NCBI RefSeq assembly: GCF_001292705.1
Contig: NZ_LGAK01000001.1
Coordinates: forward strand, 186,001-250,000
Reading direction: 5' to 3'
Origin: Marinagarivorans algicola
Lineage (GTDB): Bacteria > Pseudomonadota > Gammaproteobacteria > Pseudomonadales > Cellvibrionaceae
DNA: 64,000 nt
Below, piece by piece: positions 9,161-23,626 of the stretch (positions within the stretch are counted from its first letter, which is position 1; each line of letters begins with the position of its first letter). The notes under the pieces were generated by a model. It made no database searches and was not told the DNA's origin. It saw only the letters and a list, made by a program, of their open reading frames with translations. A program made the position numbers and the translations under genes.

Positions 9161-9913
9161 ATGTCAAATGTTTCAGTGATTACACCCGCCTATAATTCAT
9201 TACCTTTTATCAAAGAAGCATACGAATCTTTGAGTGCCCAGAAGTACTCGGGTTGGGAGTGGGTTGTTACCGATGATTGCTCCGATGACGGTACCTGGGA
9301 ATTCCTTCAAAAATTAGCGCAAACCGACTCTAGGGTTATTGTATTAAGAAATGACGTCAATAGCGGTGCGGCTATATCTCGAAATAAATCGATTGATAGG
9401 GCTTCTGGTGAGTATTTGGCTTTTCTAGATAGTGATGACCTCTGGCTCCCAAATAAGCTAGAGCTTCAATTATCTTATATGAAAGCCAACCAAATAGATT
9501 TCTGTTTTACTGCGTACGAGTTGATTGATGAGGCTGGCTCCTTGATGGGGGTAGTGGTTGATTCCTCACAAGCTGATTCCCTTGATTATGAGGATATGTT
9601 AAAGAAAAAAGCCACATTGGGTTGCTCTACTGTAATGCTTAGCCGAGATAGGGTAGGTATATCTAGAATGCCTATTTTACGAACAGGGCAGGATTACGCA
9701 TTTTGGCTGCTTTTATTGAGATCGGGTATACGTGCGCACCCATATACAGAGGTGTTGACGAAATACAGGATTGTTAATAATTCTATATCGCGGAATAAAT
9801 TCAAAAAAGCAAAGCGGCAGTGGAAAATTTACAGAGATGTCGAATCTTTAGGGTTGATTAAGTCTGCTGCCTGCTTCTTGTTTTATGCTTGGAGGGCCGT
9901 TTTTAGGCGGTAA
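9161..9913 (+). CDS. Family 2 glycosyltransferase (TuaG-like)
   Basis: A 250-residue GT-A enzyme transferring a sugar from a nucleotide donor at the cytoplasmic membrane face. It opens with VSVITPAYNSLPFIKEAYES and has the acidic nucleotide-binding DDCSDDGTWE and the metal-binding DSDD at about residue 90. A C-terminal QDYAFWLLLLRSG segment is typical of the TuaG branch. It is the only plain GT2 gene between wzz and the polymerase and is likely to add the second sugar of the repeat unit. Donor and acceptor are unknown. Confidence 0.88.
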   Translation: MSNVSVITPAYNSLPFIKEAYESLSAQKYSGWEWVVTDDCSDDGTWEFLQKLAQTDSRVIVLRNDVNSGAAISRNKSIDRASGEYLAFLDSDDLWLPNKLELQLSYMKANQIDFCFTAYELIDEAGSLMGVVVDSSQADSLDYEDMLKKKATLGCSTVMLSRDRVGISRMPILRTGQDYAFWLLLLRSGIRAHPYTEVLTKYRIVNNSISRNKFKKAKRQWKIYRDVESLGLIKSAACFLFYAWRAVFRR

Positions 9914-9989
9914 TTATTTTTATGAATGTAGATGTGGTTGTTGTGTGGCTGTGTGTGAAATAATGAATCTAACAAAAAATGAGGTCTCA

Positions 9990-11171
9990 ATGTTATCTTT
10001 AATTGGTCGCCAAAAAGAACTTTTTGCTGACGATATTCAATCGCATGATGCTGAGTTGATAAATATTGTAAACTCATCAAAATTTCTAGTTATCGGTGGT
10101 GCAGGCTCTATTGGCCAAGCTGTCGTTAAGGAACTTTTTAAACGCAACCCTTTGAAATTGCATGTGGTGGATATTAGTGAAAATAATTTAGTAGAACTTG
10201 TTCGCGATATCAGAAGTGGTAGCGGGTATATTGATGGTGAATTTAAAACCTTTGCTTTAGATATTGGCTCTATTGAGTATGACGCTTTTATAAAGTCTGA
10301 TGGCGAGTACGATTATGTTTTTAATTTATCTGCACTTAAGCATGTGCGCTCAGAAAAAGATGCATTTACACTCATGCGAATGATTGATGTGAACGTATTT
10401 AATACCGATAAAACTATTGTTCAGTCAATATCATCAGGCGTAAAAAAATATTTTTGTGTGTCTACAGATAAAGCCGCAAATCCAGTGAATATGATGGGTG
10501 CATCCAAAAGAATAATGGAAATGTTCTTGATGAAGCGCAGTGCTGAAATTGCAATCTCGACGGCGAGATTTGCAAACGTAGCATTTTCAGATGGCTCATT
10601 ATTGCATGGTTTTAATAATCGTATTACTAAGCGGCAGCCTATCGTAGCTCCTAGTGATGTAAGGCGGTATTTCGTCACTCCTCAAGAATCTGGCGAGCTT
10701 TGTTTGATGTCTTGTTTGCTGGGCAAAAATCGAGACGTCTTTTTTCCTAAATTAAGCGAAGATTTACATTTAATTACCTTTGCTGAAATTGCGGAGAAGT
10801 TTTTAAAACAGCAAGGTTATAAGCCTTACTTATGTAGCAGTGAAGAAGAGGCTAGGGTATTAATGGATGTGCTGCCACCTAAGGGGCAGTGGCCTTGCTT
10901 GTTTTTACCTAGCGATACAACAGGCGAAAAGGACTTTGAAGAATTTTATACAGCCACAGAAACTCTCGATATGGAATGCTTTAAATCTTTGGGTGTGATT
11001 AAAAATGATTTAAATATTGATGGGTTGAAAGTGGATTTTTTCGAAAAAACCATTAATGCTTTGAAGGCTCGCGGCACTTGGGAAAAGCAAGAAATTGTAA
11101 GTTTGTTTTTTGAGATGCTTCCCGATTTTGGCCATAAAGAGCTGGGCAAATATTTAGATTCAAAAATGTAG
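9990..11171 (+). CDS. Nucleotide-HexNAc 4,6-dehydratase, FlaA1/CapD-like short form (LegB role)
   Basis: A 393-residue short-chain dehydrogenase/reductase. The NAD site is VIGGAGSIGQAV; SALKHVRSEKD and STDKAANPVNMMGASKR follow the FlaA1/PseB/CapD pattern, in which the usual catalytic Tyr is replaced by Met. A C-terminal extension of about 100 residues follows. ATG 9990 is chosen over upstream starts because GAGG lies five bases before it. By position it makes the 4-keto-6-deoxy-HexNAc for the next aminotransferase. Campylobacter LegB belongs to a different SDR branch with YxxxK, so the nucleotide carried here (UDP or GDP) is uncertain. Confidence 0.85.
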   Translation: MLSLIGRQKELFADDIQSHDAELINIVNSSKFLVIGGAGSIGQAVVKELFKRNPLKLHVVDISENNLVELVRDIRSGSGYIDGEFKTFALDIGSIEYDAFIKSDGEYDYVFNLSALKHVRSEKDAFTLMRMIDVNVFNTDKTIVQSISSGVKKYFCVSTDKAANPVNMMGASKRIMEMFLMKRSAEIAISTARFANVAFSDGSLLHGFNNRITKRQPIVAPSDVRRYFVTPQESGELCLMSCLLGKNRDVFFPKLSEDLHLITFAEIAEKFLKQQGYKPYLCSSEEEARVLMDVLPPKGQWPCLFLPSDTTGEKDFEEFYTATETLDMECFKSLGVIKNDLNIDGLKVDFFEKTINALKARGTWEKQEIVSLFFEMLPDFGHKELGKYLDSKM

Positions 11172-11187
11172 TTCTTTGGAGTTGGCA

Positions 11188-12357
11188 ATGACGGCTAGTA
11201 AAATAATTAAAACAGTAAGGGGCATATACGCAACTGAAGATTTCATCCCATTACATGAACCTAGCTTTAATGGTAATGAAAAGCGGTATTTGTTAGATAC
11301 TATTGATAGTACATTTGTTTCGAGTGTTGGTCGGTATGTTGATGAATTTGAGCAAAAAATAGAATCATATACTGGTTGTGAAAAAGCAGTTGCTGTCGTT
11401 AATGGAACGTCAGCTTTACATGTGGCATTGCACTGCGCCGGTGTTAAAAATGGTGACTTTGTGCTTACGCAGGCACTGACCTTCGTTGCCACCTGTAATG
11501 CGATTAGTTTATTAGGGGCCAAGCCTATATTTATCGATGTCTCTAGTGTGAGTATGGGGCTTTGCCCTAAAGCTCTTGCTATTTACTTGGACGAGCATGC
11601 CTTTCTCGATGACAATAATGTGTGCAGACTAAAATCAACATCGGGGCGAATTAAAGCAGCCCTTCCAATGCACACCTTCGGGCATCCTGTGGAGCTTGAT
11701 GAATTGATGGCGGTGTGTGATTTTTGGGGTATCGAGCTAGTTGAAGATGCAGCTGAAAGCTTGGGGTCTTTTTATAAGGGTGTACACACAGGTGTCACAT
11801 CATCTTTTAGCGCCTTAAGTTTTAATGGTAATAAAATTATCACCACAGGCGGTGGCGGTATGGTTATGTGCAATACTAAAGATCGCGGTAAAAGAGTGAA
11901 GCATTTAACCACTACGGCTAAGCAGCCGCATCCTTATGAATATTATCATGATGAGATTGGGTTTAACTATCGGTTACCTAATCTGAACTCTGCTCTAGGT
12001 TGCGCCCAAATGGAGGCATTGCCCTCCTATTTAAAAGCTAAGCGAAAGTTAGCTCAATTATATCGAGAAGAATTAAATAGTTCTTGCTATTCATTTGTTG
12101 AAGAGCCTGATTATGCCATGTCTAATTATTGGTTAAATGCTGTGCTCTGCGAAACAAAAACTGCGCGTGACGCCCTTTTAAAAGAAACTAACGATATGGG
12201 AGTAATGACTAGACCTGTTTGGCAGCTGATGCACCGCTTACCAATGTATAAAGATTGTTTACGCGGCGGCCCTCTAGTGGAGTCTGAAAAACTTGAAGCT
12301 ACGTTAGTTAACCTACCAAGTACTCCGCCAAAGGCGTATTTAGCCGAGTGTAATTAA
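11188..12357 (+). CDS. LegC-like PLP-dependent sugar aminotransferase
   Basis: A 389-residue DegT/DnrJ/EryC1-family enzyme that would convert the 4-keto-6-deoxy-HexNAc to the 4-amino sugar. It shows NGTSALHVALH for phosphate binding, EDAAESLGS with the PLP-contacting Asp, and FNGNKIITTGGGG, where Lys forms the Schiff base. The ATG at 11188 is preceded by TTTGGAG. Its stop codon overlaps the next start by one base (TAATG). Neighbours identify it as the LegC step of a nonulosonate pathway. Confidence 0.9.
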   Translation: MTASKIIKTVRGIYATEDFIPLHEPSFNGNEKRYLLDTIDSTFVSSVGRYVDEFEQKIESYTGCEKAVAVVNGTSALHVALHCAGVKNGDFVLTQALTFVATCNAISLLGAKPIFIDVSSVSMGLCPKALAIYLDEHAFLDDNNVCRLKSTSGRIKAALPMHTFGHPVELDELMAVCDFWGIELVEDAAESLGSFYKGVHTGVTSSFSALSFNGNKIITTGGGGMVMCNTKDRGKRVKHLTTTAKQPHPYEYYHDEIGFNYRLPNLNSALGCAQMEALPSYLKAKRKLAQLYREELNSSCYSFVEEPDYAMSNYWLNAVLCETKTARDALLKETNDMGVMTRPVWQLMHRLPMYKDCLRGGPLVESEKLEATLVNLPSTPPKAYLAECN

Positions 12358-13517
12358 TGAAAATAGCAGTGTTTACAGGTACTCGTGCAGAATATGGCTT
12401 ACTGTACTGGTTGCTTAAAGATATTCAGTCGGATTCTACGCTAGAATTGCAGTTGTTGGTTTCGGGTACCCACTTATCACCTGACCATGGATTGACGTAT
12501 CAGGCAATAGAGGAAGACGGTTTCGTCATTAATGAGAAAATTGAGGTCCTTTTATCTGGAGATACGCCAGTTTCCGTTGCTAAAAGTGTTGGTTTAGGTG
12601 TTTTAGGTTATACCGATGCACTGGAAAGAATGAAGCCTGACTTTTTAGTCGTACTTGGTGATCGATTTGAAGCGTTAGCTGTTGTTCAGGTGTCAATGCT
12701 CCTAAGGATTCCAGTTGTGCATTTGCATGGTGGTGAAATCACTGAAGGAGCCTATGATGATTCCATTCGACATGCTATTTCTAAGTTGAGCTATATTCAT
12801 TGCGCCTCCATGGAGGTCTATCGACATCGTATTATTCGGATGGGAGAAGACCCTAGTCGAGTATTTAATGTTGGGGCTATAGGCTTGGATCACTTAAGGC
12901 GTACTAAGCTAATGACAAGGCGTGAGCTGTCTTCATCATTGTGCTTCACTTTGGATAAGCCTTTTTTTATTCTTACGTATCATCCTGTGACTCTCGCCGA
13001 TGAGGGTCCAGAGAAAACATGCGAAAGTATATTAAGTGCTATTGATTTATTCCCTGATTATAATGTCATCATCACATATCCAAATGCGGATGACGGAGGA
13101 AAAAAAATTATCCCTATACTAGAGCGGTACGCAAAAACCAACCCATTAAGAGCTTTGGTTGTGCCCTCGTTGGGGCAACTTCGTTATTTAAGTGCGGTAA
13201 AAGAGTGCTCGGCAGTACTTGGTAATTCTTCCAGTGGTGTTATTGAGGTTCCATCATTTAAGCGAGCTACAGTGAATATTGGTGCGCGCCAAAGAGGGCG
13301 TGTATCAGCCTGCAGCGTTGTTGATTGCGGTGTTGAAGTTAATGAAATACATGATGCGATAAGTGAAGTGTTAAGTGTTGCTTTTGCAGAGGTGCTTAAT
13401 AATGTAAAAAACCCCTATGGCAGTGGTAATGCAAGTAAGAAAGTAATTGAAGCTATCAAAAATGTAGATGTGAATTTAGCAAAAAAATTCTATGACGGTA
13501 TTGTGGAGGGTGTATGA
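12357..13517 (+). CDS. Hydrolysing NDP-sugar 2-epimerase, NeuC/LegG-like
   Basis: A 386-residue GT-B-fold enzyme that removes the nucleotide while inverting C2, giving the free N-acetylmannosamine-type sugar. It has the family's FTGTRAEYGLL N-terminus, LGDRFEALA, HLHGGEITEGAYDDS-RHAISK and GNSSSGVIEVP. In this setting the product would be the 2,4-diacetamido-2,4,6-trideoxy-mannose used by the NeuB-like synthase. It is translationally coupled at both ends, overlapping the previous gene by one base and the next by four. Confidence 0.92.
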   Translation: MKIAVFTGTRAEYGLLYWLLKDIQSDSTLELQLLVSGTHLSPDHGLTYQAIEEDGFVINEKIEVLLSGDTPVSVAKSVGLGVLGYTDALERMKPDFLVVLGDRFEALAVVQVSMLLRIPVVHLHGGEITEGAYDDSIRHAISKLSYIHCASMEVYRHRIIRMGEDPSRVFNVGAIGLDHLRRTKLMTRRELSSSLCFTLDKPFFILTYHPVTLADEGPEKTCESILSAIDLFPDYNVIITYPNADDGGKKIIPILERYAKTNPLRALVVPSLGQLRYLSAVKECSAVLGNSSSGVIEVPSFKRATVNIGARQRGRVSACSVVDCGVEVNEIHDAISEVLSVAFAEVLNNVKNPYGSGNASKKVIEAIKNVDVNLAKKFYDGIVEGV

Positions 13518-14599
13518 CATTAATAATTGCTGAGGCTGGCGTTAATCATAACGGGTGTGAGGACTTGGCATTAAAATTAGTTGAGGCGGCGCATGCGGCG
13601 GGTGCAGATATTGTTAAATTTCAAACATTTAAAGCAGCGCGCTTGGTAACGAAAAGTGCTAAGCAGGCCAATTATCAACTCGCCAATACAAAAAAAACAG
13701 AAACCCAGCTTGCGATGTTGTCTCGGCTTGAGCTTAGTTATGAAACCCATAAAAAATTACTGGTCCGCTGTAATGAGTTAGGGATTGAATTTTTATCAAC
13801 TGCTTTTGATGAGGATAGCTTAGCATTTTTAGTGAACGATATTGGTATAAAAAGATTAAAGCTCCCTTCTGGTGAAATAACAAATGCACCCTTGGCTTTA
13901 GCTCATGCAAAAACAGGCCTTGACATCATTGTTTCTACCGGGATGGCAACATTATCTGAAATCGAGTCTGTATTAGGCGTTATTGCATTTGGTTATTTGG
14001 AGCATCTTGATGGGCGAAATATTAAGCCTTCGATTCAGGCATTTAAAGAGGCTTATGCATCAATAGAGGGGCAGGCACTCCTGAAAAGAAAGGTTACGCT
14101 CCTTCATTGCACAACGGAGTACCCGGCTCCTGTCAAGGAGGTTAATTTAAATGTAATGGCGGCGTTAAATTTAGCATTTGATTTAACGGTTGGATACTCT
14201 GATCATACGGCTGGAATTGAAATACCTATTGCCGCAAGCGCATTAGGTGCAGCTGTTATCGAAAAACATTTCACGCTAGATAAAAATATGCCTGGCCCAG
14301 ACCATAAGGCTTCATTAGACCCTGTTGAGCTCAAGCAAATGGTTTTGAGTGTGAGAAATGTAGAGCAGGCTATGGGGCGAAGCGTTAAAGTGCCAACATT
14401 ATCGGAAGTTAAAAATATTGCAGTTGCCCGTAAGAGCTTAGTTGCTGCCGCGGAGATCTGTGAGGGCGATTGTTTTACCGTTGAAAATCTAGATATAAAA
14501 AGACCTGGCGATGGCGTCTCTCCTTATCTTTACTGGGAATACCTCGGACGTAGAGCTACTAAAAAATTCAACTTAGGCGATGTGGTTGATGAAAGTTGA
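13514..14599 (+). CDS. Nonulosonic acid synthase, NeuB/LegI-like
   Basis: A 361-residue TIM-barrel enzyme that condenses phosphoenolpyruvate with a six-carbon amino sugar to give a nine-carbon nonulosonic acid. It starts IIAEAGVNHNG, followed by AGADIVKFQTF, LKLPSGEITN, LHCTTEYPAP, GYSDHT and VIEKHFTLDK. The last 60 residues form the SAF antifreeze-like domain (RKSLVAA-EICEGD). The gene begins in an ATGA overlap with the epimerase gene. Whether the product is legionaminic or another nonulosonic acid cannot be settled from sequence; the LegB/LegC-type genes favour legionaminic. Confidence 0.93.
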   Translation: MTLIIAEAGVNHNGCEDLALKLVEAAHAAGADIVKFQTFKAARLVTKSAKQANYQLANTKKTETQLAMLSRLELSYETHKKLLVRCNELGIEFLSTAFDEDSLAFLVNDIGIKRLKLPSGEITNAPLALAHAKTGLDIIVSTGMATLSEIESVLGVIAFGYLEHLDGRNIKPSIQAFKEAYASIEGQALLKRKVTLLHCTTEYPAPVKEVNLNVMAALNLAFDLTVGYSDHTAGIEIPIAASALGAAVIEKHFTLDKNMPGPDHKASLDPVELKQMVLSVRNVEQAMGRSVKVPTLSEVKNIAVARKSLVAAAEICEGDCFTVENLDIKRPGDGVSPYLYWEYLGRRATKKFNLGDVVDES

Positions 14600-15236
14600 G
14601 TGGCGAACCTATCTTATTGGTGGCGGAGGGCATGCTAAGGTTGTTGCGGACATGTTAACTTCCATGTCGACTTCACCCTATTGCTTGGTGCTGCAGCGTG
14701 GAGAGGTTCCGTCAAGTTTTTTTAGCGGTATAGCATTTGTTTACGATGATGAATTATTAGAAACTAACCCATCGTTATCACGGCTCTACAACGGTATCGG
14801 CAGCTTGCCCGGGTCTCGTGTCAGGTGTAGTATTTTTAATCAATATAGTCAGCGCAGCTTTTTATTTCCTGAGTTAGTGTCAGCTGCAGCCACTTGCGTG
14901 CCGAGTGCAAAATTAAGTCGCGGTGTGCAAGTTATGGATGGAGCTATTATCCATGCAGATACAACTGTTGGCGAAAATAGCATTGTAAATACAGGAGCTA
15001 TTCTAGAGCACGATTGTATGATTGGTTCGAATTGCCATATTGCTCCTTCTGCAACTATATGTGGCGGCGTACTGATAGGTGACGGCGTACATGTTGGGAC
15101 TGGGGCAAATATCATTCAAGGTGTACAAGTTGGTGACCGTGCCGTCATTGGTGCGGGGGCAATTGTTACTCGTGATGTGCTTAGTGATGCAGTCGTTTAC
15201 CCCGCAAGAAGCTACACAAAAAACCATAATGAATAA
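14589..15236 (+). CDS. PglD/NeuD-like sugar N-acetyltransferase (LegH role)
   Basis: A 215-residue acyltransferase. The N-terminal Rossmann-like PglD domain (YLIGGGGHAKVVADML) binds the sugar nucleotide, and the C-terminal hexapeptide repeats (GENSIVNTGAILEHDCMIGS onward, GVHVGTGANI, VIGAGAIVTRDV) form the left-handed beta-helix that binds acetyl-CoA. His in EHDC is the likely catalytic base. It would acetylate the 4-amino group made by the LegC-like enzyme. The gene overlaps the synthase gene by 11 bases; the ATG at 14580 is an alternative but is too close to its ribosome site. Confidence 0.88.
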   Translation: MKVEWRTYLIGGGGHAKVVADMLTSMSTSPYCLVLQRGEVPSSFFSGIAFVYDDELLETNPSLSRLYNGIGSLPGSRVRCSIFNQYSQRSFLFPELVSAAATCVPSAKLSRGVQVMDGAIIHADTTVGENSIVNTGAILEHDCMIGSNCHIAPSATICGGVLIGDGVHVGTGANIIQGVQVGDRAVIGAGAIVTRDVLSDAVVYPARSYTKNHNE

Positions 15237-15269: not shown

Positions 15270-16334
15270 ATGATCAATGATTGGATGGATGTAGTTGTTC
15301 GCCCCTCTCAGAGTATTAGAGAAAGTTGGCGTATTCTGAATGATGGTGCTTTACGTTTTGTTATGGTGACAGACGACAGTTATAAGCTACTAGGTGTAGT
15401 GACTGATGGCGATATTCGTCGAGGGTTATTATCTGGTATGGAGCTGGGTGATAGCATCAGTGCGGTAATGAATAAAAGCCCCATAACTATTCCTCGTAGT
15501 ATGGAGAAGCAAGCGCTGATTGATTTGATGGAAGAACGTAAGGTTTTAGCGCTTCCTCAAGTTGACAATGGTGTTTTAGTTGGTTTGGCGGTCTTGCAAG
15601 ACTTGTTACAAGTCCCTGTTATTGATAATCCGGTCTTCATAATGGCAGGAGGCTTTGGCACGCGCTTACGACCATTAACCGACAGCTGCCCAAAGCCAAT
15701 GCTGAAAATTGGCGGTACGCCAATGTTGGAAATTCTCATCAAAAGCTTTAAAGCGAAGGGGTTTAGGAACTTTTATATATCTACACATTATTTACCCGAA
15801 GTTATTACTGAGTATTTTGGTGACGGATCTGATTTTGGTGTGTGTATCACCTATGTTCATGAAAAAAGCCCGTTAGGTACAGGTGGGGCTTTAGGCTTAT
15901 TACCTAGCAATATTCCAAAGCTCCCTCTTATTGTAATTAATGGAGATATTTTAACCAATTTAGATTACAAGCTTCTCTTAGATGAGCACTCATTGAGTGC
16001 GGCTTCGGCCACTATGTGTGTGAGGGCTCATGAAGTTAATATTCCTTTTGGCGTAATAGAAGCAGATGATAATAAAATTACTGCTATGGTTGAAAAGCCA
16101 ACATATAGGTACTTCGTGAATACGGGTATTTACGTGATATCCCCAGAGGTTTTAGCTTTTGTTAAAAAAGACGTAAGATTGGATATGCCAACATTATTAC
16201 AATCTCAAATTGATAACGGTAAGTTGGTGAAAACTAAGTTAATGCATGACTATTGGCTTGATATTGGTCGTATGGATGATTTTAATAAAGCGCAAGTGGA
16301 TATCTTAACCTTAGGGTTAAAGGGTGTTTTATGA
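15270..16334 (+). CDS. CBS-domain sugar nucleotidyltransferase, PtmE-like
   Basis: A 354-residue fusion. Residues about 1-115 are two CBS domains (GVVTDGDIRRGLL is diagnostic). Residues about 121-354 are a nucleotidyltransferase beginning IMAGGFGTRLRPLTD with the signature lysine in CPKPML, and later VEKP. In Campylobacter the equivalent PtmE makes GDP-glucosamine as entry to legionaminic acid, so its presence argues for a GDP-linked route here. AAGG precedes the ATG. It overlaps the next gene by four bases. Confidence 0.88.
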   Translation: MINDWMDVVVRPSQSIRESWRILNDGALRFVMVTDDSYKLLGVVTDGDIRRGLLSGMELGDSISAVMNKSPITIPRSMEKQALIDLMEERKVLALPQVDNGVLVGLAVLQDLLQVPVIDNPVFIMAGGFGTRLRPLTDSCPKPMLKIGGTPMLEILIKSFKAKGFRNFYISTHYLPEVITEYFGDGSDFGVCITYVHEKSPLGTGGALGLLPSNIPKLPLIVINGDILTNLDYKLLLDEHSLSAASATMCVRAHEVNIPFGVIEADDNKITAMVEKPTYRYFVNTGIYVISPEVLAFVKKDVRLDMPTLLQSQIDNGKLVKTKLMHDYWLDIGRMDDFNKAQVDILTLGLKGVL

Positions 16335-17017
16335 GGGTTGTAGCACTGATTCCTGCTCGTGCGGGGAGTAAACGGTTACCGCAAAAAAACGTATTACCCT
16401 TAATGGGTAAGCCGCTAATTACTTGGACGATTGAGGCGGCAGCCCAGTCCGGTGTATTTGATGAGATTGTTGTCTCTACTGATTGCGAGTATGTTGCTGA
16501 GTTGGCGCAAAAAGCCGGTGCGAAGATCCCTTTTTTAAGACCCTCAGAGCTTTCAGGGGATATGGCTTCGAGTGCAGATGTTATCTTGCATGCTATTCAT
16601 GAGTTGCAGTTGGGATATAGCGATGTTCTTGTTTTACTGCAGCCAACCTCACCCTTAAGGCGGGCGGAGGATATTATTAATGCAGTACAGTTATTGAGAG
16701 ATGATGATACCGCTAACTGTATTGTCTCCCTTACAGAGTGCGAACATAGTCCTCTGTGGTGTGGTCAGTTGCCACCTTCTGGCTCGATGGAAGGGTTTTT
16801 TGATAAGTCTGTGAGTAATAAAAGAAGTCAAGACTTACCAGTTTACTTTAGGTTGAATGGGGCGATTTATGTGTCTTATGTGGAGTCAATAATTAGCAAT
16901 AAAGGCTTTGCTTATGATAAAGGTTCACGTGGTTATGTGATGCCTCGTGAGCGCTCAGTTGATATAGATAGTCAATTTGACTTTGATGTAGCAGAAGTGC
17001 TAGCTAAGTATTTGTAA
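16331..17017 (+). CDS. CMP-nonulosonate cytidylyltransferase, NeuA/LegF-like
   Basis: A 228-residue enzyme that activates the nonulosonic acid with CTP to its CMP form for transfer. It has ALIPARAGSKRLPQKN (residues 5-20), VVSTD, LLQPTSPLR and FRLNGAIYVS, all standard for this family, and lacks the C-terminal phosphatase/esterase domain of longer NeuA proteins. Start in an ATGA overlap with the CBS nucleotidyltransferase gene. It completes the synthesis set; the product should feed the candidate transferase at 18251. Confidence 0.93.
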   Translation: MRVVALIPARAGSKRLPQKNVLPLMGKPLITWTIEAAAQSGVFDEIVVSTDCEYVAELAQKAGAKIPFLRPSELSGDMASSADVILHAIHELQLGYSDVLVLLQPTSPLRRAEDIINAVQLLRDDDTANCIVSLTECEHSPLWCGQLPPSGSMEGFFDKSVSNKRSQDLPVYFRLNGAIYVSYVESIISNKGFAYDKGSRGYVMPRERSVDIDSQFDFDVAEVLAKYL

Positions 17018-17021
17018 CGAT

Positions 17022-18251
17022 ATGTATAAGCGTCTACATAATCTAATCGGTTCTTCTGGTGCAAAAACAGCGTTAATATTTATTGGCGGTGATACCTTAA
17101 ATAAGGCAATCCCTTTTCTGTTACTTCCGTTAATTATTAACAAAACAACGGGATATGAATTTGGTTTGTATTCTCTGGGTATTCTATTTGTGCAGTTTTC
17201 TCAGGCCTTTTGCTTGTCCGGCATGAGCGCAAAAGTCATACTTGCCATTACTAAAAAGAAGCCTTTTGAATCTGTTTTGGGTGCCGGTTTACTGATAGCT
17301 ATTTTTTCAGCCTTATTATTAGCGGTGTTGTTAAAGTACTTTTCTGATCTGGAAGTGTTTTCAGGGTTCGAACTAAATAGTATTCTACTTTTAATACTCT
17401 CTGGTTTTTGCAATGCATTAGTTGCATTGTGTATGTCGGTATATCAAGCTCGTTTAGACGCATTTAGGTATGCATTATTACAGCTTACCCAAACGATTTT
17501 AGTTTTTCTATCTATAGTGACGGGTGTTTTATTATTCTCATTGAATACTGTGTGGATGTTAATCTTCTTTGCATCTTTTATTATGCTAGCGATACATTCG
17601 TATTTGATGTTTAGGGAAAGACTAGCTTACCGTAATGTTTTTGGCGAACTTGAAGAAAATGTGCGGTTTGCTTTGGCTCAGTTACCTCATGTTATGTCTA
17701 GTTGGGTGCGCTTGGGGTATGATCGTATGATTCTAGCATCCTTAGTTGGGGTTGTGGCTGTTGGTGGGTACTCGGCTGCTTTACAGGTGGGCTTAGTTGT
17801 TAGTGTTGTTGTGATGGGAATGAATAAATTCATGTCTCCTAAGATTTTGACAGCATTGTTTGCCGGTAGTAGCGTTGCTTCATATCTCCGTCGTGCATTT
17901 GCTGGGGTGCTAATTTTGTTTTGCATAGTCTCTGTTATGGGGGCGCTGTTGTTTTATTATTTCTTTCCCGTCGACTATCTTGAGTATACTTACCTAATCC
18001 CCGTTTTTTGTTTGGCATACGCTTTTCAGGGGGCGTATTTCCTAGTTGTAAACTTTTTACATTTCCATGATAAAAGCCATTTTATCTTTATTCCTTCGGT
18101 GGCTTCTTTGGTGGTGCATATTTTTATTGCACCTTTATTGATTGCAAAATATGGAGTTGCAGGTGGGGCGTTAGCTTTACTGGTAAGTTGGTTTTTACTA
18201 TTCACTTTCACATTAGTGTTAGTTTTTGCTGTGTCTAAGAGGTCGAAGTGA
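17022..18251 (+). CDS. Wzx-type polysaccharide flippase
   Basis: A 409-residue polytopic protein with about twelve hydrophobic helices, of the MATE/MOP flippase type. It would turn the undecaprenyl-linked repeat unit to the periplasmic side. There is little motif conservation in this family; the call rests on length, helix pattern (for example IFIGGDTLNKAIPFLLLPLI at the N-terminus) and position between the CMP-sugar gene and the transferase and polymerase genes. Four bases separate it from the upstream gene. Base composition becomes clearly AT-richer from here to 20.9 kb. Confidence 0.85.
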   Translation: MYKRLHNLIGSSGAKTALIFIGGDTLNKAIPFLLLPLIINKTTGYEFGLYSLGILFVQFSQAFCLSGMSAKVILAITKKKPFESVLGAGLLIAIFSALLLAVLLKYFSDLEVFSGFELNSILLLILSGFCNALVALCMSVYQARLDAFRYALLQLTQTILVFLSIVTGVLLFSLNTVWMLIFFASFIMLAIHSYLMFRERLAYRNVFGELEENVRFALAQLPHVMSSWVRLGYDRMILASLVGVVAVGGYSAALQVGLVVSVVVMGMNKFMSPKILTALFAGSSVASYLRRAFAGVLILFCIVSVMGALLFYYFFPVDYLEYTYLIPVFCLAYAFQGAYFLVVNFLHFHDKSHFIFIPSVASLVVHIFIAPLLIAKYGVAGGALALLVSWFLLFTFTLVLVFAVSKRSK

Positions 18252-19210
18252 TGCCGCCTGAAATAGTTTTTATAGAATCTCCTTTACAGCTTAAAAGTGC
18301 ACTTAGGATGACATCCAGTAGTGGTAATTTATTGATTGTTTGTCGTCTAAATGGTGAGGCCGAAAATGATTCTAGAATTAAGTCTTCTGCATGTGGTGCT
18401 GATATAGAATATCGCTTTATCGTCGCTCCTCCAGGCAGTGCTTGGGGACTGATGAAGCTTATTGTGCTTGCTGTTTATATTAGGTTAAGGCAGGTTTTTA
18501 GTGTTAAGTGCTCGACTGTTTTTATCGGGGACTATCGTGCATTTTGGATGAGGATTTGTGCGTCCTTCTTTAGTTTAAGGTCTATAAATATCTTAGACGA
18601 TGGTATGGCAACAATTCATGTTGTTTCTAAGTTAGATGAGTCTCTTGTTAAACAGGGGGGGCTGTTGCGTTTATTGATGCCTTCGGTGTGTTTTTATACC
18701 GCATTTAACATAAAAGCAGAGAAGGTTGATATCGTATATCTTCCTGTAGAGCGTTTTACTGATGATCGTGATACTGATAGCTCTGTTGCATACTTTATTG
18801 GTGCCCCTCTTGTTGAAAAAGGCATAGTTACAGCGCAGAGCTATAAATCCTTAATGGCCGATGTCGCAGAATATTTTTATCACAAACACCGTTCTATTAA
18901 AAAAGTTGTATATGTCCCACACAGGGCCGAGCTTGAAGAAAACTACTCGGCAAGTGTTGATGGGCTGAATCTATTTACCGTGAAATCTCTCAATGAAGAT
19001 GTCGAGTCATATATGCAAAAACTGAAGATGGCACCTGCATGCGCGGCATCATTTTATTCAACGGCTTTATTTATGTTGAGAGAGAGTGGTTTTGACGTCA
19101 TATCATTTAAAATTCCTTTGGATTTTGTTGCGCTAAAATTTTCAAAAGATATTGATCAGGTGTATGATTTTTATCATGTGTTAAATAATGTTGAGGTGGT
19201 TGAGTTATGA
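18251..19210 (+). CDS. Candidate nonulosonic-acid transferase (sialyltransferase-motif protein)
   Basis: A 319-residue protein I could not place in a family outright. It shows the ordered short motifs shared by bacterial sialyltransferase families such as GT52 and GT38: DDG at residues 116-118, a His in YVPHRAE (H224; the classical form is HP), and a Ser-Thr pair at 270-271 in SFYSTAL. IGDYRAFW before the first motif also fits a GT-B fold. With CMP-sugar synthesis upstream and no other candidate in the operon, transfer of the nonulosonate onto the repeat unit is the best guess. ATG 18251 overlaps the flippase stop; GAGG lies upstream. Confidence 0.6.
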   Translation: MPPEIVFIESPLQLKSALRMTSSSGNLLIVCRLNGEAENDSRIKSSACGADIEYRFIVAPPGSAWGLMKLIVLAVYIRLRQVFSVKCSTVFIGDYRAFWMRICASFFSLRSINILDDGMATIHVVSKLDESLVKQGGLLRLLMPSVCFYTAFNIKAEKVDIVYLPVERFTDDRDTDSSVAYFIGAPLVEKGIVTAQSYKSLMADVAEYFYHKHRSIKKVVYVPHRAELEENYSASVDGLNLFTVKSLNEDVESYMQKLKMAPACAASFYSTALFMLRESGFDVISFKIPLDFVALKFSKDIDQVYDFYHVLNNVEVVEL

Positions 19211-19689
19211 GATTTTTGCGCAACATGATGACATATTTTTGGAGTTTTTGGGCGCGTACATCACTAGGCGGTGGCCGACCTAAGGTGAATGCATTGTCGC
19301 GCTTTACAAAAAATACATATATTGGCGATGATTGTCACTTTAACGGCTTTAAAGTTTTAGGTGTTGGTAGGGTCACTATTGGTAAGGGATTTCATAGTGG
19401 CAGTGGCTGCAAGGTGATTACTGATGTACATAACTATAATGGTACCGCTTTACCGTACGATAATACATATATCACCAAAGATGTATCTATCGGCGATTAT
19501 GTTTGGCTTGGGCAAGATGTTACAGTGCTCGGTGGCGTAGTAATTGGTGAGGGTGTAATTGTTCAAGCGGGTAGTGTTGTTGTATGTGATATTCCTGCAT
19601 TAAGTATAGCTGGCGGTCACCCCGCTACCGTCTTTTCTATGAGAGATGAGTCACATTACTTCACTATTAAGAGTAAGGAGTTTACTTGA
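19207..19689 (+). CDS. Hexapeptide-repeat O-acetyltransferase
   Basis: A 160-residue left-handed beta-helix acyltransferase of the NodL/LacA/WbbJ type. Hexapeptide repeats run through YIGDDCHFNGFKV, TIGKGFHSGSGC and VSIGDYVWLGQDVTVLGGVV. The acetyl-CoA site includes VIVQAGSVV and GGHPATV. The His in DVHNYNG is the likely catalytic base. It probably O-acetylates the repeat unit. Coupled to the upstream gene by a four-base overlap and to the polymerase gene by a one-base overlap. Confidence 0.85.
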   Translation: MRFLRNMMTYFWSFWARTSLGGGRPKVNALSRFTKNTYIGDDCHFNGFKVLGVGRVTIGKGFHSGSGCKVITDVHNYNGTALPYDNTYITKDVSIGDYVWLGQDVTVLGGVVIGEGVIVQAGSVVVCDIPALSIAGGHPATVFSMRDESHYFTIKSKEFT

Positions 19690-20867
19690 TGATCTTGGGG
19701 TTTTTTTTTCTCACATTAGCACTTTTTTTTGTATTGTGGGTGTATATCCTAACTGGTGAAATCAAAAAGCCCACTGTTTTATATTCTTTGTCATTGATAA
19801 CTATATTTTATACGCCATCACTGTATTTTTATTTTGGTGGTACTACATATCGTTTTTTTAATAATGAATCATTAGTGTTGTTTTTTCACATAGGCGGGGT
19901 GTTTTTATTTATTTATGGACTGTTGATGTTTTTTATTCGCCTCATTTTTTCCCCTTCTGGTAATATTAGATTTCAGTCCACTGTTCTAATTAAAATATAT
20001 TTTTCGTTCTTTGTCGGTATTATAGTTGTGTATTACGCTATGTACTTTAAATCTATGCCTTTAATGTACTTTTTGATTTCTGGTGAAATGATAGATAGGC
20101 CCGATTTGACAGGGAGTATCCCTCATTTCTATACAATATCTAGCTTAGTTATGGTGTATCTTGGTTCTACATATTTCTACTATTTCGATGCTATTTGTAG
20201 CAAATATCTGCATGTAGTTATTAATTTGTTAATGTGTTTTATTTATGTTATGGCTGGCCATAAAGGATTTGTTGTTTATTATTGTCTTTTTTTATGGGTC
20301 TTCGTTTTCAAACTCTCAGTTGATTTCAAAATATTTGCTATTTTCTTTGCTTTACTTTTTGTCTATATGCTAACTAAGGGCATAACTCATATAGATGCAG
20401 ATGTGTTGGCGTATATGATGGACTCTCCTTTTCGTCGTTTCTTTGTTACTCAGGGGACAGGGTTTATTCATCGTTTGGACCTTCTTGAATTTGGAGGTGT
20501 TATTGAGCATGTGAGGGGGATAAAGTTTGCTGTTTTTCAGAAGATGTATAATGTGTCTTTTGATGGTTCTGCTCCAACATTTTATACCGGCGATCTTATC
20601 GTCAAATACGGGTATCCGTTTTCTATATTGATATTTATATTTATATCTTCTGGATTATTGTTCTTCTGTCAATGTATTACTAAGTTGAGTTGTAATAAAC
20701 ATTTGTTTTTATTTTGGAATTTCTACGTAATTACATTCCTCATTAGTATGGCTGAGATAAGTTTTTCAAGTAGTATTAGGATTCTACTAGTTATTATAAA
20801 CTTAATTATTGTTTATAGTTTAGGTCGCATAACCATGCTTAAGACTTCTGTATATCGGCTAGATTGA
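19689..20867 (+). CDS. Wzy-type O-unit polymerase
   Basis: A 392-residue integral membrane protein with about ten to twelve hydrophobic segments, very rich in Phe, Tyr, Ile and Leu. A larger periplasmic loop lies around residues 225-310 (FFVTQGTGFIHRLDLLEFGG). Wzy proteins have little sequence conservation, so the call rests on topology and on its place as last gene of the operon beside wzx. It would join lipid-linked repeat units in the periplasm, with Wzz setting the length. Low GC marks it as the most foreign-looking gene here. Confidence 0.75.
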   Translation: MILGFFFLTLALFFVLWVYILTGEIKKPTVLYSLSLITIFYTPSLYFYFGGTTYRFFNNESLVLFFHIGGVFLFIYGLLMFFIRLIFSPSGNIRFQSTVLIKIYFSFFVGIIVVYYAMYFKSMPLMYFLISGEMIDRPDLTGSIPHFYTISSLVMVYLGSTYFYYFDAICSKYLHVVINLLMCFIYVMAGHKGFVVYYCLFLWVFVFKLSVDFKIFAIFFALLFVYMLTKGITHIDADVLAYMMDSPFRRFFVTQGTGFIHRLDLLEFGGVIEHVRGIKFAVFQKMYNVSFDGSAPTFYTGDLIVKYGYPFSILIFIFISSGLLFFCQCITKLSCNKHLFLFWNFYVITFLISMAEISFSSSIRILLVIINLIIVYSLGRITMLKTSVYRLD

Positions 20868-22069: not shown

Positions 22070-23626
22070 TTATCCTAATTTCTGCGCTTCTAGCGCAACT
22101 ACTTGCCTTTGCACCTTACTAAATTCGACCCCAATACCATAAATAGCCCACCCCTCACGCACATATTTTTGCGCATAATTATTCGCCTTAATTTGTGCCA
22201 AGGCATTGCCTAAGGGTTTATCGTCGACTACTTTAAATTCAAAAATAAACGTCGTGTTATTAAATTGAATGGCCATATCCACTTTACCGTTAACACTGGC
22301 CTCTTCCACGGTTACATGCAAGCCCAAAGCGGCGAAGTGGCTGTAAAAGATGCTGGCATAGTGGCCTTCGTAATTATTTAAAGGATTATTTCGGTACCAG
22401 TCGTGGGGGATGCTGGCGTATAGGGCTTTTAAATGGGTGGCGAGTAATTCAAAGTTGCAGGTTTTTAGGGCTTTTAATAAGGTAGATCGCGTTTTAGTAA
22501 CGGCACTAATACTAAAACCTTGGGTGGGTAGCAGGGCTTTATTAAGACTAACTTCTACCTCAACATTGGGGTAACTCAGGGTGTATTCCCAAATGCCGGG
22601 GATGGGTTCATCCGCCGCCGCAATGGTTAAATAACCGGTTTGAAATAACAGTGCTTCGGTGCCTATGGCATCTACATCAAAATGGCCGAGTAAATCTTGG
22701 TCGGAATGTAGGGCGGCTAAATCTAGCGTATTAATTTGCCGCTTGCCCAATTCTTTGATTAAAAAAGTCGGCGTGGCGCTTTCAAACCAAAAGGGTTTAA
22801 ATTGTCGCTCTTGCAGCAATAAAAGCACATCAAACGGATTATACACCGACGTACCTAGCCAATTGTAGCCGTTATACCACGTGCGTATTTTGTCGCGGTC
22901 TAGGCCTTCTAGCTCCGGTTTAAATACTTCATCGATATCGTCGTCGGTATAACCACAAATAGCCGAATACTCTGGGCTTAAGGTAATATCGCGCAGATTA
23001 TTCAAACCACTAAACAGGCTCACCTTACTAAATTTACTCACACCCGTTAGCAGCACAAATTTTAAAAATGGGTCGGCGTCTTTTATTACGCTGTATAAGT
23101 TTTTTAAACCTTCGCGGTTTTGCGTGGCAATGTCGGTATTTTCGATATTATCTAAAATAGGTTTGTCGTATTCGTCGATCAGCAATACAGCGCCTTGGCC
23201 GTATTTTTGGTGGGCGGCCATTAATAAACTGCGAAAATTACCGGGTATATCTAATGCTGTGTTGGCGGGTAGGCCTAAACGTTCGCGGTTGTCGCTCAGT
23301 TGCTGGTTGATGCGGTCATCTAATGATGCACGCCCTTGTACCACGCCATCACCAAAACCAAAACGCACCACAGGGTAGGTTGTTTGCCAGTCCCACTTAT
23401 CGTCAATAAACAGGCCTTTAAATAAAGCACGCTGACCTTCAAATAATTGCTGTAAGGTGTCTAAAAACAAGCTCTTACCAAAGCGGCGCGGACGGGACAA
23501 AAAGTAGAACTTACCCTGCTCTATTAGCGCATGGGCATAGGGCGTTTTATCAACATAATAATAGCCGCCGTTAATAATCTCGCTTAATGATTGAATGCCA
23601 ATGGGGAGCTTGCGTTTAGTTGTCAT
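22070..23626 (-). CDS. AAA-ATPase with C-terminal PD-(D/E)XK nuclease domain
   Basis: A 518-residue protein of the common AAA_31-like plus PDDEXK_9 (DUF1703) type. It begins KLPIGIQSLSEIINGGYYYVDKT, has a Walker A-like RPRRFGKSLFLDTL at about residue 46 and a Walker B LLIDEYDKPILDN at about 148. The C-terminus holds the nuclease core GKVDMAIQFNNTTFIFEFKVV, with Asp and Glu-Phe-Lys. These proteins are abundant, often repeated within a genome, and of unknown role; mobile or defence-linked roles have been proposed. It is opposite to the glycan genes and likely inserted between the epimerase and ugd genes. Confidence 0.9.
   Translation of the reverse strand: MTTKRKLPIGIQSLSEIINGGYYYVDKTPYAHALIEQGKFYFLSRPRRFGKSLFLDTLQQLFEGQRALFKGLFIDDKWDWQTTYPVVRFGFGDGVVQGRASLDDRINQQLSDNRERLGLPANTALDIPGNFRSLLMAAHQKYGQGAVLLIDEYDKPILDNIENTDIATQNREGLKNLYSVIKDADPFLKFVLLTGVSKFSKVSLFSGLNNLRDITLSPEYSAICGYTDDDIDEVFKPELEGLDRDKIRTWYNGYNWLGTSVYNPFDVLLLLQERQFKPFWFESATPTFLIKELGKRQINTLDLAALHSDQDLLGHFDVDAIGTEALLFQTGYLTIAAADEPIPGIWEYTLSYPNVEVEVSLNKALLPTQGFSISAVTKTRSTLLKALKTCNFELLATHLKALYASIPHDWYRNNPLNNYEGHYASIFYSHFAALGLHVTVEEASVNGKVDMAIQFNNTTFIFEFKVVDDKPLGNALAQIKANNYAQKYVREGWAIYGIGVEFSKVQRQVVALEAQKLG

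Follow-up and report, generated by a model that had tools for sequence, protein, structure and literature searches.

In a polysaccharide locus of Marinagarivorans algicola we found a 319-aa protein, P0001, that most likely, and with rather high confidence, transfers legionaminic acid from CMP-legionaminate to a surface polysaccharide. Its gene lies in the window, i.e. the whole 64,000-nucleotide stretch of DNA analysed here (contig NZ_LGAK01000001.1, positions 186,001 to 250,000; Table 1). The analysis established the ORF, its conserved residues, a relationship to the bacterial sialyltransferase superfamily, a predicted GT-B fold and a linkage to nonulosonate synthesis; from these we infer the activity, the donor, the acceptor and the roles of individual residues.

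Table 1. Genes of the polysaccharide locus and motifs of P0001 (positions in the window)
Feature	Coordinates	Strand	Basis
GT2 glycosyltransferase	9161..9913	+	PF00535 E 3.7e-34
UDP-HexNAc 4,6-dehydratase (LegB role; Polysacc_synt_2)	9885..11171	+	PF02719 E 1e-42
LegC-family aminotransferase	11176..12357	+	TIGR04181 515 bits, cut-off 420
NeuC/LegG hydrolysing 2-epimerase	12357..13517	+	TIGR03568 458 bits, cut-off 236
NeuB/LegI nonulosonate synthase	13514..14599	+	TIGR03569 466 bits, cut-off 400; PF03102
NeuD/PglD-type sugar acetyltransferase (LegH role)	14580..15236	+	TIGR03570 191 bits, cut-off 161
PtmE-like nucleotidyltransferase with CBS domains	15270..16334	+	PF00483 and PF00571
CMP-nonulosonate synthetase (LegF/NeuA role)	16331..17017	+	PF02348 E 7e-27
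Wzx-type flippase	17022..18251	+	PF01943 34.5 bits, cut-off 28.2
P0001, candidate divergent GT-B nonulosonate transferase (319 aa)	18251..19210	+	ORF, profile-profile and fold match
P11-L-Q13 (N-terminal PxQ)	18281..18289	+	invariant in ten-protein alignment
DDG 116-118	18596..18604	+	invariant; aligned to DDG of NST and the GT52/PF07388 set
H224-R225 (within YVPHRAE 221-227)	18920..18925	+	invariant HR; H aligned to HP His
E252	19004..19006	+	invariant; aligned to conserved Glu of GT52/PF07388
S270-T271	19058..19063	+	S270 in 9/10 proteins
Hexapeptide acyltransferase	19207..19689	+	PF00132
Candidate Wzy polymerase, hydrophobic protein	19686..20867	+	inferred from hydrophobic sequence and position

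The P0001 gene directly follows wzx and a complete set of genes that, judged by published pathways, is for CMP-legionaminic acid synthesis; UDP and GDP versions of this pathway have been described (PMC11356810). An earlier reading of the sequence alone had placed P0001 in an operon making a CMP-nonulosonate, and this is borne out by LegC, NeuC, NeuB and NeuD homologues that score above curated cut-offs, accompanied by PtmE-like and CMP-nonulosonate synthetase-like genes. Together with Wzx, a Wzz-like protein (matches under cut-off) and the Wzy candidate, for which NCBIfam gave no match, this is a Wzx/Wzy polysaccharide locus. From the Wzz-like gene to the wzy candidate, the GT2 enzyme is the only other recognised glycosyltransferase. 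The polysaccharide region also contains a 518-aa ORF on the reverse strand (22070-23626), which looks like a mobile-associated protein of the AAA-ATPase/PD-(D/E)XK type. The P0001 ORF is intact (319 codons) and overlaps both wzx and the hexapeptide acyltransferase gene by a few bases: it starts at ATG 18251 or, alternatively, at GTG 18248, where it overlaps the stop codon of wzx, and its own stop at 19210 overlaps the following ATG at 19207.

That P0001 belongs to no recognisable family, as had been claimed, holds insofar as it has no NCBIfam match and no Pfam match above cut-off, and needs qualification for its sole Pfam match, a sub-threshold hit to GT52 (PF07922; 21.0 bits, E 2.3e-4, gathering cut-off 26.1). 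Nothing was obtained with PF07388 (GT38; gathering cut-off 23.3), even at E 10, nor with PF01973 (Maf). The Maf gene of this genome lies in a separate Pse-type locus, and we rejected a Maf-type assignment. Sequence searches with P0001 returned no match in the PDB, none in phages and nothing of note in plasmids, and neither P0001 nor A2 as query found a relative in the genome collection and viral contigs.

Relatives of P0001 are very distant. A single-sequence search found none in 97 other genomes of the genus, family and order, and only one further genome with a relative, G233 (E 9e-10), in 369 genomes of the class. The G233 relative led to loci L009-L012, and a six-row profile, searched against 299 genomes of the phylum, brought in further loci from G570, G692 and G542. 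The resulting nine relatives share 17-27% identity with P0001 and come from gamma- and other proteobacteria and from Myxococcota. Eleven positions are invariant in all ten proteins (P11, Q13, D116, D117, G118, T121, G184, H224, R225, E252 and A272). The DDG, the His of YVPHRAE and the Ser-Thr pair named in the sequence-only reading are exactly where it had put them, and their conservation at such low identity (DDG and HR in 10/10, S270 in 9/10) is above chance; these three motifs are real, and the conserved Glu, E252, had been overlooked.

What sets these proteins apart is the loop around the His, and we refer to them as HR proteins. The residue following the His is Arg in 10/10 of them and Pro in 8/8 GT52/PF07388 proteins used for comparison. 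P0001 has H224-R225 in place of the HP of the GT38/GT52/GT80 superfamily, and V222 two residues before the His, where (K/R)xHP has Lys or Arg; among HR proteins only that of L032 keeps an Arg at this position, and the consensus of the altered loop reads [hydrophobic]-[P/A]-H-R. In a tree of 18 distant proteins, P0001 clusters with the L033 protein (support 95/95) and the HR proteins all lie to the same side of one weakly supported branch (51/72); we therefore make no claim of a single origin.

The affiliation of HR proteins emerges from profile comparison. Aligned with hhalign against the eight GT52/PF07388 proteins, the ten HR proteins give a probability of 97.9% (3.4e-13, 299 columns), with the DDG on DDG/EDG/DEG, H224 on the His of HP, E252 on the conserved Glu, and the Ser also in register. 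Control enzymes taken from the same loci as the HR genes remain at or below 1% against the same ten proteins (heptosyltransferases 0.5%, NeuC epimerases 0.9%, GT4-like enzymes 0.8%). Moreover, among the relatives, L010 matches PF07388 over its full length and above the cut-off (39.5 vs 23.3 bits). No solved structure is matched significantly by sequence similarity alone: a profile built on six proteins, the first to be collected, found nothing in the PDB, the ten-protein profile reached NST (the GT52 sialyltransferase of N. meningitidis) only at E 0.16, and the GT52/PF07388 set used as a profile retrieved no relevant chain.

Structure prediction followed by a fold search, in which an unrelated fold would have spoken against the assignment, points to the same enzymes. 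The AlphaFold model built from ten sequences (pLDDT 75, pTM 0.73) has as its top Foldseek match the M. haemolytica polysialyltransferase of GT38 (5wcn 9e-11, 5wc6 7e-10), followed among distinct proteins by the GT52 NST (2yk6 2e-7); the GT80 sialyltransferases 4r9v and 2z4t match as well (8-9e-4). An earlier model from six sequences (pLDDT 57, N-terminal half weak) gave the same order (GT38 E 8e-9, GT52 NST 3e-5). The structural match is moderate (TM 0.58-0.62, rmsd 6-7 A across the whole chain), other GT-B enzymes match the model more weakly, and a viral fold search returned general GT-B glycosyltransferases only. According to DSSP, DDG, H224 and S270 sit in loops right after beta-strands of the model and E252 at a helix start, a placement that would fit, as expected, a cleft between the two domains of a GT-B enzyme.

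P0001 thus combines resemblance to the GT-B fold with the D/E-D/E-G motif and, after the His, the ribose Glu and phosphate Ser/Thr typical of the superfamily. These data support its placement in a divergent branch of the GT38/GT52 superfamily that Pfam and NCBIfam miss, rather than in a new fold. The suggestion of a new family of nonulosonic acid transferases is therefore mostly borne out: such a function is probable, and as to novelty, since L010 passes PF07388, a divergent branch is the better description.

Known enzymes of the superfamily suggest roles for the conserved residues. In the M. haemolytica polysialyltransferase (MhPST), E153 of D/E-D/E-G is the base and E153A is inactive, Q41/Q44 help the base, the leaving phosphate is stabilised by H291 and bound by S339/T340, and E323 binds ribose; base and acid are about 13 A apart in the open form (PMC5517516). 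In the polysialyltransferase NmB-polyST, E153A and G154A abolish activity (PMC2169525). By analogy, the proposed P0001 equivalents are D117, H224, S270/T271 and E252, and Q13 of the PxQ motif may be the counterpart of Q41/Q44. P0001 would belong to the bacterial sialyltransferase superfamily as a GT-B glycosyltransferase with an inverting mechanism, its closest families being GT38/PF07388 and GT52/PF07922. D117 would act as the base on the acceptor hydroxyl; H224, the proposed acid or phosphate contact, would together with S270/T271 bind the phosphate of the departing CMP; and E252 would hold the ribose. Legionaminic acid would pass from CMP-legionaminate, the presumed product of the seven genes just upstream, to a lipid-linked oligosaccharide on the cytoplasmic side, which Wzx would then flip. 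Sialyl- and Kdo transferases read cytosine through (K/R)xHP, with the Pro lying against the base and the Lys/Arg forming a hydrogen bond with it (PMC12887879). Because both are lost, apart from the Arg of L032, HR proteins must read the base differently, and R225 would be the obvious candidate for this altered recognition. We further propose, tentatively and with a little less than an even chance of being right, that the ten HR proteins are CMP-nonulosonate transferases that deserve a family of their own at the CAZy level; their invariant Arg would contact the base, the phosphate or the donor carboxylate, and P0001 would be the legionaminyltransferase among them.

Concerning the donor, HR genes are linked to nonulosonate synthesis outside M. 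algicola too. NeuB is present in all five whole genomes carrying the HR family, against a background of 24/58 relatives, and each of the four other than M. algicola (G570, G233, G542, G692) encodes a NeuB-family synthase no more than 15 kb away from an HR gene. The G570 locus has a neuC-neuB-neuD-ptmE-neuA set adjoining flagellin genes, that of G233 a legB-legC-neuD-neuB-ptmE set beside LPS-core genes; in G542 neuB and neuA lie downstream with two genes in between, and in G692 neuA-neuB-neuC head the same gene run. On the MAG contigs L009 and L010, NeuB is encoded upstream of the HR gene. With one or two NeuB per ~4 Mb, the two genes would come to lie within 15 kb by chance in ~1% of cases per genome, a figure that is too optimistic, the linkage statistic being inflated because polysaccharide genes cluster. 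The HR genes of L011, L012 and L036 sit among LPS-core heptosyltransferase or Kdo-transferase genes, that of L036 beside waaA, so not every HR member need use a nonulosonate; at these three loci CMP-Kdo is the likely ulosonate. No nonulosonate genes were recognised near the L035 HR gene. A CMP-ulosonate donor is likely the common denominator of the family, and for P0001 gene context makes CMP-legionaminate the likeliest donor.

Several of these genomes hold further genes of related interest. M. algicola has PseB/PseC/PseF-like genes of a second nonulosonate pathway beside Maf (L051:11099-14140, G000 contig 40), and a different contig carries a second NeuB (L052:9433-10485, G000 contig 18); as Maf and the second NeuB lie in separate Pse-type loci, the flagellin sugar would have its own transferase. 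Between the HR gene and neuB of G542 is a DUF6716 'putative glycosyltransferase' (L043:7841-9184; PF20471, E 1e-60), a candidate for another nonulosonate-related transferase. In a polysaccharide locus of G692 (L039:15707-19661 and L053, contig 55, ~59-65 kb), one fusion protein combines a hexapeptide acyltransferase with a lipoyl/biotinyl domain, and a fused E1 dehydrogenase (E1_dh and transketolase domains) and a dihydrolipoamide-dehydrogenase-like gene adjoin; the set is possibly a dedicated 2-oxoacid dehydrogenase complex passing an acyl group to a sugar. Also in G692, an IspD-type cytidylyltransferase, a short-chain dehydrogenase, a CDP-glycerol phosphotransferase-like protein (PF04464) and an ABC transporter (L039:10862-14886) make up a polyol-phosphate set of teichoic-acid-like character, which shares its gene run with neuA-neuB-neuC.

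Three other explanations were weighed. P0001 might belong to the GT38/GT52-like superfamily and yet use another donor, for example CMP-Kdo or a non-cytidine one, in which case the addition of legionaminic acid would fall to the GT2 enzyme or take place elsewhere. The replacement of the cytosine-reading (K/R)xHP (PMC12887879) in HR proteins and the LPS-core setting of L011, L012 and L036 are in its favour, but it would leave the NeuB linkage in seven loci unexplained, and the members in an LPS context are close to CMP-Kdo, a chemically similar donor; we consider it rather unlikely. We know of no GT2 nonulosonate transferase, which counts against the GT2 enzyme in this role.

Far less probable is a retaining CMP-ulosonate transferase like the beta-Kdo enzymes GT99/GT107 or GT118 KpsS1, working by double displacement via an Asp nucleophile. 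Although GT99/GT107 use CMP-ulosonates and carry the HP motif (PMC12887879), their nucleophile motif QxxxD is absent from P0001 and unconserved among its relatives, on which ground we rejected a Kdo-type retaining enzyme; besides, the fold search ranks GT38 and GT52 highest and names no GT99/GT107 enzyme among its best 50. It is equally hard to credit that P0001 is a degenerate, non-catalytic member of the superfamily with a regulatory or structural role. Its HP motif is altered, and in NmB-polyST H278A or P279A leaves <10% of the activity (PMC2169525); yet the base, the His, the ribose Glu and the DDG are strictly kept across very distant relatives, unlike in decay, and the change from Pro to Arg is fixed in 10/10 HR proteins. 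Catalytic legionaminic acid transfer from CMP-legionaminate remains the reading that we prefer.

Information on legionaminyltransferases 'is very limited in general' (PMC11356810), and as of 2020 there were 'no reports' of them, SpsA/SpsB being excluded (PMC7439481). With a soluble-looking candidate of 319 aa whose fold is predicted, whose active site is mapped and whose donor operon is known, the question can be tested directly. The HP motif, a hallmark of bacterial sialyltransferases for which published alignments contain one HA exception (PMC2169525), misses the HR branch linked to nonulosonate synthesis, and motif or Pfam annotation therefore undercounts such enzymes. A PF07388-like protein with VDDG and KHHPRS (weak, 22 bits) is encoded at L021:1396-3236 immediately after a NeuB gene, downstream of it; the longest ORF of this protein overlaps the NeuB end, and the true start is probably further in.

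Among known systems, the closest is the GT38/PF07388 polysialyltransferase of M. haemolytica (PDB 5WCN/5WC6), with which P0001 shares the predicted GT-B fold, D/E-D/E-G, the catalytic His, the ribose Glu, the Ser-Thr pair and an N-terminal Gln near the base; it differs in having HR for HP and no Lys/Arg two before the His, in being shorter, and in an identity of only 13-14% in structural alignment. The GT52/PF07922 NST of N. meningitidis (PDB 2YK4-2YK7) is the second fold match and its DDG aligns, but P0001 again has HR for HP, its Pfam score is below gathering, and its donor is probably CMP-Leg, that of NST being CMP-Neu5Ac. Maf (PF01973), a flagellin nonulosonate transferase that uses CMP-Pse or CMP-Leg, showed no sequence relation to P0001. 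Another transferase of a bacterial nonulosonate, GT118 KpsS1, is a retaining pseudaminyltransferase in the description cited in PMC12887879, and by that description is set apart from P0001, which is proposed to be inverting. Finally, a PF07388 protein of G169 (L047:6958-8073; the same gene in L013) occupies the same slot beside a CMP-Leg synthetase and a PtmE-like gene. Unlike HR proteins it keeps KPHP, and it is distant from them in the tree; since a KPHP-type protein fills the same position in a Leg operon, CMP-Leg loci seem to draw on two branches of the superfamily.
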